Of a stretch of DNA of 64,000 nucleotides, positions 52,105 through 56,147 are shown in pieces. A program made the translations under genes and the position numbers. Origin of the DNA: a bacterium (GTDB lineage Bacteria > Joyebacterota > Joyebacteria > Joyebacterales > Joyebacteraceae); NCBI GenBank assembly GCA_025774935.1, contig JALGZK010000004.1, positions 124,001-188,000 on the forward strand. The letters are read 5' to 3'. Each line of letters opens with the position of its first letter. Within the stretch, counting starts at the first letter, position 1. The notes under the pieces were generated by a model. The model had not been told where the DNA came from. It saw only the letters and a program-made list of their open reading frames with translations, and made no database searches.

Positions 52105-53937
<1,833 letters not shown>

Positions 53938-53959: not shown

Positions 53960-55006
53960 GTGAGCGAGGGTGCCCCCAAGCTGACGCAGTTCGTGGAGTG
54001 CGCCGGCTGAGCGTCGAAGCTGGGTCCGGAGGACCTGCGCTACGTGCTCGACCGGCTCGCCGGAATTGATGATCCACGCGTGCTCGTTTCGTCGAACACG
54101 GTGGACGACGCCGGGGTGTATCTCATGGACGACGGCTCGGCGCTCGTCCTCACCGTCGACTTCTTCACGCCGATCGTCGACGATCCGGTCGACTACGGGC
54201 GGATCTCCGCGGCGAACGCCCTCTCCGATGTCTACGCCATGGGAGGACGCCCGCTCGCCGTCCTGAACGTGCTCTGTTTCCCCGACGAGGCCCTCCCGCC
54301 CGAAGTGATGCTCGGCATCCTGAAGGGCGGACAGGAGAAGGTGGCCGAGGCGGGAGCCGTCGTGATCGGCGGCCACAGCGTGAAGGACAAGGAACTCAAG
54401 TTCGGATGCTCCGTCGTCGGCACGGTCGACCCCGGCCAGGTGGTCGCGAACGCGGGCGCGAAGCCGGGGGACGTGCTGGTGCTCACGAAGCCGATCGGCG
54501 TCGGCGTTCTCACCACGGCTCTCAAGAACGAGAAGCTCGACGCCGCGAAGCTCGCGGAGATCACCGCGCTCATGGCGGAGCTGAACCGAGACGCCGCGGA
54601 GGCGATGGTCGAGGCGGGAGCGACCGCGGCGACGGACGTGACTGGGTTCGGACTGGCCGGTCACGCGGTCGAGATGGCCGACGGGAGCGACGTCACGCTC
54701 GAGATCGAGCTCGGAGGTCTGCCCCTCATCGGCGGGGCGGTCGAGACGCTTCGCGACGGGTTCATCCCGGGCGGGCTCGCCAAGAACCGCGACTACTACG
54801 AGCGCTTCGTCTCCGTGGATTCGGGCCTCGACAGCTACGCGGTCGAGCTCATCTACGACCCGCAGACCTCCGGAGGGCTCCTCGTTGCGCTTCCGGAGGT
54901 GCGGGTGGCGGACTTCCAGACGGCCTTCGCCGCGAGAGGTCACGCCCCGGCGCCGGTCGTCGGGCGGGTGGTCTCGAGGGGCGAGAGCGCCGTCAATCTG
55001 AGATAG
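53960..55006 (+). CDS. selD: Selenophosphate synthetase with in-frame UGA (selenoprotein SelD)
   Basis: ATP-dependent enzyme of 348 residues making selenophosphate from selenide, the selenium donor for Sec-tRNA. Codon 17 is TGA (54008-54010) in the segment FVECAG-U-ASKLGPEDL; this is exactly where SelD proteins have the catalytic Cys or Sec, followed by the conserved Lys at residue 20. Downstream the frame is open and contains DDAGVYLM, TVDFFTPIVDDP, GRISAANALSDVYAMGG, IGGHSVKD, TDVTGFGLAGHA and DPQTSGGLL, all diagnostic. A SECIS-like hairpin lies just after the UGA. Annotation that treats TGA as stop would start this gene near 54044 and lose the active site. GTG start 53960 has GGGAGGGAG upstream. 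It sits 22 bp after glmS and 36 bp before tRNA-Sec. Confidence 0.93.
54008..54040 (+). promoter_or_regulatory. Putative bacterial SECIS element of selD
   Basis: After the UGA (54008-54010), 17 nt separate it from a GGA apical loop at 54028-54030, closed by a 7 bp stem (54021-54027 with 54031-54037, including two GU-type pairs). Bacterial SECIS rules ask for a loop with G among its first two bases 16-37 nt after UGA, which this meets. It lies inside the coding sequence, as in all bacterial selenoprotein genes. Confidence 0.65.
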
Positions 55007-55042
55007 CGCCGCCCCGCCGGCGCGTTGCCACAACGAGAGAGC

Positions 55043-55141
55043 GGGAATGGATGGGTCCTGGTGGGCCCCGAGGGCTTCAAACCCTTATGTTGGGCGGCTG
55101 ACCCCGTCCGAGGTGGGTTCGATTCCCACACATTCCCGCCA
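55043..55141 (+). tRNA. selC: tRNA-Sec (anticodon UCA)
   Basis: A 99-nt tRNA including an encoded CCA end. It has the special features of selenocysteine tRNA: a long acceptor arm (7 Watson-Crick pairs plus a terminal G-A), a 6 bp D stem (GGGTCC with GGGCCC) closed by a 4-nt loop, anticodon loop CTTCAAA with UCA, a very long variable arm, and a T arm GTGGG/CCCAC with loop TTCGATT. The discriminator base is G, allowing charging by SerS. It lies between selD and a PP-loop gene, on the same strand. Confidence 0.96.
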
Positions 55142-55172: not shown

Positions 55173-56147
55173 GTGAAGGCGCTCGCGCTCCTCTCAGGTG
55201 GCCTGGACAGTATCTTGGCCGCGCGGCTTCTCACGGAGCAGGGCGTCGAGGTCATCGGGGTGAGTTTCGTCTCCCCGTTCTTCAGCGCGACCTCTGCCAA
55301 GCGCTCGGCCGAGGAAGCGGGCATCGAACTCGTCGTCATCGACCTCTCGGAGGAGATCCTCAAGGTCATCGCTTCTCCGAAGCACGGATTCGGGAGGCAC
55401 GTCAATCCCTGCATCGACTGCCACGGCCTGATGCTGAGGATGGCCGCCGCGAGAATGGAGGAGCTGGGAGCGTCGTTCGTCGTGACCGGTGAGGTCGTGG
55501 GGCAGCGCCCGAAGTCGCAGATGCGCTTCGGGCTGCAGGCGGTCGAACGTGAGTCGACTCTGGGGGGGCTCCTCTTGAGGCCGCTCTCCGCGAGGCTCCT
55601 CCCGCCGACGATCCCCGAGGAGAAGGGCTGGGTCGACCGGGAGAAGCTCCTCGGGCTCCACGGGCGGACGAGGAAGCCGCAGATGGAGCTCGCGGAGAGA
55701 TTCGGAATCACGCGCTACGCGTCGCCGGCGGGAGGGTGTCTCCTCACCGACGCGAACTACGCCCGCGGCGTGCGGGACCTGATCGAACACGACCAGCTCG
55801 ACATCGACGCCGTGAGGCTCCTCGCAGTCGGTCGTCAGTTCAGGGTCTCGAAGACCGCGAAGCTCACGGTCGGGAGGAATCACGGGGAGAACGAGACGCT
55901 CTTCGGCACGAAGCCGCCGGACGCGCTCTTCGTGAAGGTCATCGACCGGAGGGGGCCCGTCGGCGTGCTCTCGGGCGAGCCGGACGAGGAAGACCACGAG
56001 ACGGCAGCGCGCATCGTCGCGCGCTACGCCGACACCGCCCGCGGCGAGGTCGTCCGGGTGCGCCTGTGGGACGGCGAGGACGGCGAGTCGCACGAACTCA
56101 CGGTGCGCCCGCTCGAGCCGAAGGGCGTGAGGGGGCACGCGATTTGA
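55173..56147 (+). CDS. PP-loop ATPase, MnmA/ThiI-like tRNA thiolation enzyme with NFACT-R-like tail
   Basis: Protein of 324 residues. The PP-loop SGGLDSILAARLLTEQG opens the protein (residues 8-24). Two likely catalytic cysteine sites, CIDC in NPCIDCHGLML (about 84-87) and the Cys of SPAGGCLLTD (about 191), sit where MnmA-type 2-thiouridylases have theirs. The C-terminal third (RVSKTAKLTVGRNHGENETL...) resembles the RNA-binding NFACT-R/DUF814 module. It is therefore probably a tRNA sulfur-transfer enzyme, not MnmA itself. It starts 31 bp after tRNA-Sec and could share its transcript with selD, making a selenium/sulfur tRNA function possible. GTG start with GAAGGGG upstream. Confidence 0.72.
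   Translation: MKALALLSGGLDSILAARLLTEQGVEVIGVSFVSPFFSATSAKRSAEEAGIELVVIDLSEEILKVIASPKHGFGRHVNPCIDCHGLMLRMAAARMEELGASFVVTGEVVGQRPKSQMRFGLQAVERESTLGGLLLRPLSARLLPPTIPEEKGWVDREKLLGLHGRTRKPQMELAERFGITRYASPAGGCLLTDANYARGVRDLIEHDQLDIDAVRLLAVGRQFRVSKTAKLTVGRNHGENETLFGTKPPDALFVKVIDRRGPVGVLSGEPDEEDHETAARIVARYADTARGEVVRVRLWDGEDGESHELTVRPLEPKGVRGHAI

Follow-up and report, generated by a model that had tools for sequence, protein, structure and literature searches.

Sec-type SelD proteins, i.e., selenophosphate synthetases (selenide, water dikinases) that carry selenocysteine (Sec), are already on record from the first surveys of selenoproteomes. They are among the commonest bacterial selenoproteins known (PMC13188914; PMC1794560). 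FdhA or SelD occurs in every selenoproteome, and SelD may help to keep the Sec trait in organisms without FdhA (PMC1794560).

The selD gene described here lies in a window of 64,000 nucleotides (the whole stretch of DNA that was analysed), located on contig 14 of a 3.24-Mb genome that is 96% complete. The Sec codon, the active site, the hairpin with its UGA-type conservation, the tRNA-Sec, selA and selB were all seen in the sequence. With a probability of roughly 97%, the gene encodes an ordinary Sec-containing selenophosphate synthetase, which is decoded via the hairpin, SelB and the adjacent tRNA-Sec. A Sec-type selD next to tRNA-Sec is a well-known, widespread arrangement, found here in an uncultivated bacterium, and the general understanding is unchanged because Sec-type SelD is so common among bacterial selenoproteins. 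What is gained is a corrected annotation and the documentation of a complete Sec-decoding system for an uncultivated bacterial lineage; a search for selenoproteins in Eisenbacteria found no papers in the literature collection covered.

Reading Frame and Active Site of selD

The frame of selD runs from a GTG start at position 53960 to a TAG stop at 55004-55006 and contains a single in-frame TGA, at codon 17, while it is open everywhere else (Table 1). With the TGA read as Sec, the product has 348 residues. The initial annotation had described a continuous selD frame with TGA at codon 17 and lysine at residue 20, and had proposed aligning the readthrough protein with SelD families: frame reading, the TIGR00476 selD equivalog model (cut-off 125 bits, residues 7-312 covered) and an alignment with the solved SelD of E. 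coli (3u0o) all confirm this description. The latter alignment extends over the length of the protein and places the TGA opposite the catalytic Cys17, with Lys20 retained three residues further on (UxxK). The motifs DDA, VDFF, NALSDVYAMGG, GGHS, TDVTGFGL and DPQTSGGLL are retained as well, and with them the catalytic-loop and ATP/Mg motifs of the E. coli enzyme.

The protein is thus predicted from its sequence to be a selenocysteine-type selenophosphate synthetase. It shares the fold family and the aligned catalytic residues with the Cys-type SelD of E. coli, but has Sec17 in place of Cys17 and Ser19 in place of Cys19; Ser19 is the commonest state among UGA-type relatives (33/61). No essential difference was found from Sec-type SelD/SPS2 (TIGR00476, UxxK), with which it has in common Sec at the Cys17 position, Lys20, AIRS N- and C-terminal domains, and a bSECIS directly after the UGA.

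TABLE 1. Positions of selD and associated features (window positions, except for the two AhpC/TSA-domain proteins, which lie elsewhere in the genome).
Feature	Position	Strand	Evidence
glmS, upstream neighbour, not a selenium gene	52105..53937	+	TIGR01135 800 bits
selD, selenide, water dikinase	53960..55006	+	TIGR00476 377 bits; PDB 3u0o (E. coli SelD) 5e-67
In-frame TGA, Sec codon 17 of selD (E. coli Cys17 position)	54008..54010	+	Frame reading, alignment, conservation
bSECIS apical hairpin, GGGUCC-GGA-GGACCU, loop 54028-54030	54022..54036	+	Folding; pairing kept in UGA-type, not Cys-type genes
tRNA-Sec (selC), anticodon UCA, encoded CCA	55043..55141	+	ARAGORN; Rfam RF01852 71.5 bits
Putative protein with ThiI/MnmA-like HUP domain and NFACT-R_2 RNA-binding domain	55173..56147	+	PF18297, PF02568, PF03054
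AhpC/TSA-domain protein with in-frame UGA, UxxC (L127)	G000:C38:19459-19800		
AhpC/TSA-domain protein with in-frame UGA, UxxC (L129)	G000:C28:90398-90754		

Automatic gene callers had been expected to drop the active site, and this holds for a plain table-11 ORF finder: its longest in-frame ORF runs from a GTG at 54044 to 55006 (320 residues) and begins past the catalytic residue, without the active-site loop. The NCBI annotation pipeline includes a selD model, so some annotators would catch the full gene. The same 320-residue ORF is what would speak for an internal start at this GTG, which would yield a SelD-like protein too short to include the Sec loop. Such a start is very improbable: the 16 residues preceding the UGA form a conserved in-frame SelD N-terminus (KLTQ...AG), the shortened form would miss the catalytic residue, and the UGA and the hairpin are conserved, for which an untranslated leader would have no need.

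Conservation of TGA at Codon 17

The comparison set comprised the 80 closest SelD loci, with one genome per species, from many phyla. The codon-17 column holds TGA in 61 and a Cys codon in 19 of these loci, and no other state. All family members with a full selD recovered (19/19) have TGA at this codon, among them G001 and G002, which belong to the same genus, and 16 other genomes of the family. That a single stop interrupts the frame of a gene that is intact elsewhere, in a draft assembly, could point to a sequencing or assembly error, or to a pseudogene ended at codon 17, but this reading is already refuted by the UGA kept in independent assemblies: TGA stands at exactly codon 17 of otherwise open frames in G001-G016, G018 and G019 and in dozens of genomes from other phyla, and selA, selB and tRNA-Sec are all in the genome. 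The initial annotation had named reads with TGC or another codon at the site as a refutation; a sequencing error at this codon is ruled out by its conservation.

The bSECIS Hairpin

A hairpin with a GGA loop 17 nt past the UGA had been described previously and is borne out by folding, by the published bSECIS limits and by conservation among UGA-type genes. Its arms (54022-54027 and 54031-54036) form 6 bp, starting 11 nt past the UGA, and the segment 54020-54048 folds with -11.3 kcal/mol. Published limits for a bSECIS are a loop of 3-9 nt, a G in the first two loop positions, a distance of 16-37 nt from the UGA, and a minimum free energy of at most -7.5 kcal/mol (PMC13188914); the selD hairpin, with a 3-nt loop and G at loop positions 1 and 2, lies within all of them. 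Compared with shuffled sequences, its energy is not exceptional (z -1.35 in one test, -0.95 in another), so energy alone proves little and conservation was tested instead.

The six pairs are formed at 99% in 15 distinct family sequences, and at 78% in 86 distinct UGA-type sequences vs. 43% in 20 Cys-type sequences; other registers reach at most 68% pairing in the UGA-type set. When synonymous codons were shuffled among sequences, none of 500 shuffles reached the UGA-type value, while 467 of 500 reached the Cys-type value. Since this control ignores relatedness and the UGA-type excess over it is small (0.783 vs. 0.764), stronger evidence for the hairpin comes from the difference in pairing between UGA-type and Cys-type genes.

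tRNA-Sec, Sec Machinery and Further Selenoproteins

ARAGORN finds one tRNA gene within the whole window, a tRNA-Sec(UCA) whose start is separated from the selD stop by 36 bp, and the full-length covariance-model match to RF01852 (gathering threshold 47 bits) agrees with this call and with the earlier placement of the gene. It has the UCA anticodon and the long variable arm of bacterial tRNA-Sec, but differs in adjoining selD and in the deletion of one acceptor-stem model position in the alignment.

Neither selA nor selB was found within the window. Both are encoded elsewhere in the genome above their curated cut-offs, selA at C1:230629-231996 (533 bits) and selB at C35:16334-18193 (345 bits), so that the Sec-decoding genes selA, selB and selC are all present. 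The split machinery implied by the initial annotation is thus real, with its genes scattered across three or more sites, selA and selB being on two other contigs; their absence from a near-complete genome had been named as a possible refutation, and both are present in this 96%-complete one.

In two AhpC/TSA-domain proteins of the genome, a UxxC motif includes a UGA that is in frame (FWGFT-U-GPC and GASW-U-PIC), one near the C-terminus of an open frame of ~560 residues and one inside an open frame of ~676 residues. Prx-like thiol:disulfide oxidoreductases with UxxC are a known class of predicted selenoprotein (PMC13188914). The two proteins are probably further selenoproteins, which would give the genome at least two besides SelD, and they suggest that the Sec system is in use. 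The notion of SelD as the sole selenoprotein of the genome was ruled out on account of these two UGA-containing proteins. In searches of the genome, selenouridine synthase (TIGR03167) had no match, Sec-type formate dehydrogenase alpha had nothing above the curated cut-off (weaker matches lack an internal stop), and TusA had one match, without UGA.

Some genomes of the family have a second SelD without UGA beside the Sec-type SelD (L137 at G009:C4 and L136 at G005:C68). The L137 frame reads like a NifS-like cysteine desulfurase with a Cys-type SelD (GCACK) after it, which would make it a probable NifS-SelD fusion, and a NifS-like part was also seen in the L136 stretch.

Proposed Mechanism

Recoding at UGA17, catalysis and any autoregulatory effect would be expected to proceed as follows. 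When a ribosome reaches the UGA at codon 17, SelB on the hairpin just past it would bring Sec-tRNA-Sec, the tRNA of which is encoded 36 bp past selD. Sec17 and Lys20 would become part of a flexible N-terminal active-site loop, and selenide and ATP would be converted to selenophosphate. Selenophosphate would in turn feed SelA, which would charge the same tRNA-Sec, making selD expression dependent on its own product. It is plausible that such autogenous Sec use adjusts the supply of selenophosphate, an idea that is not new.

Gene Neighbourhood

The one noteworthy local feature is the gene order glmS - selD(Sec) - tRNA-Sec - ThiI-like/NFACT-R_2, which is conserved family-wide. The end of glmS is 22 bp from the start of selD, and all 19 of the 19 family loci have glmS on the upstream side of selD. 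tRNA-Sec follows just downstream in 18 of the 19 and the ThiI-like/NFACT-R_2 gene in 17, the remaining one and two loci, respectively, being cut by contig ends. Promoter and terminator scans found nothing. Outside the family, a Candidatus Eisenbacteria record (L009) with a 53% identical SelD has the order glmS - selD(UGA) - tRNA-Sec, and the ThiI-like gene had no match at that locus.

The fusion of a ThiI/MnmA-like HUP domain with NFACT-R_2 stands directly after tRNA-Sec throughout the family (loci L087-L105). A lineage-specific selenium cluster, in which this protein would act on tRNA-Sec or in selenium handling (e.g., tRNA thiolation or selenation), is nevertheless unlikely. A selenium link by co-occurrence was considered and found unsupported: homologs (E<1e-60) occur in genomes without clear SelD (G022, G033, G046 and G048), so a selenium role has no support beyond synteny, and another paralog is encoded at a different place in the window's own genome (48% identical, G000:C4:25709-26674).

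The same-genus genome G001 has a second glmS-selD(UGA)-ThiI-like cluster (L135, G001:C97). It has diverged from the window (65%) about as far as the G008 copy has, and since it lies on a 4.6-kb contig, this contig was possibly binned from another genome.
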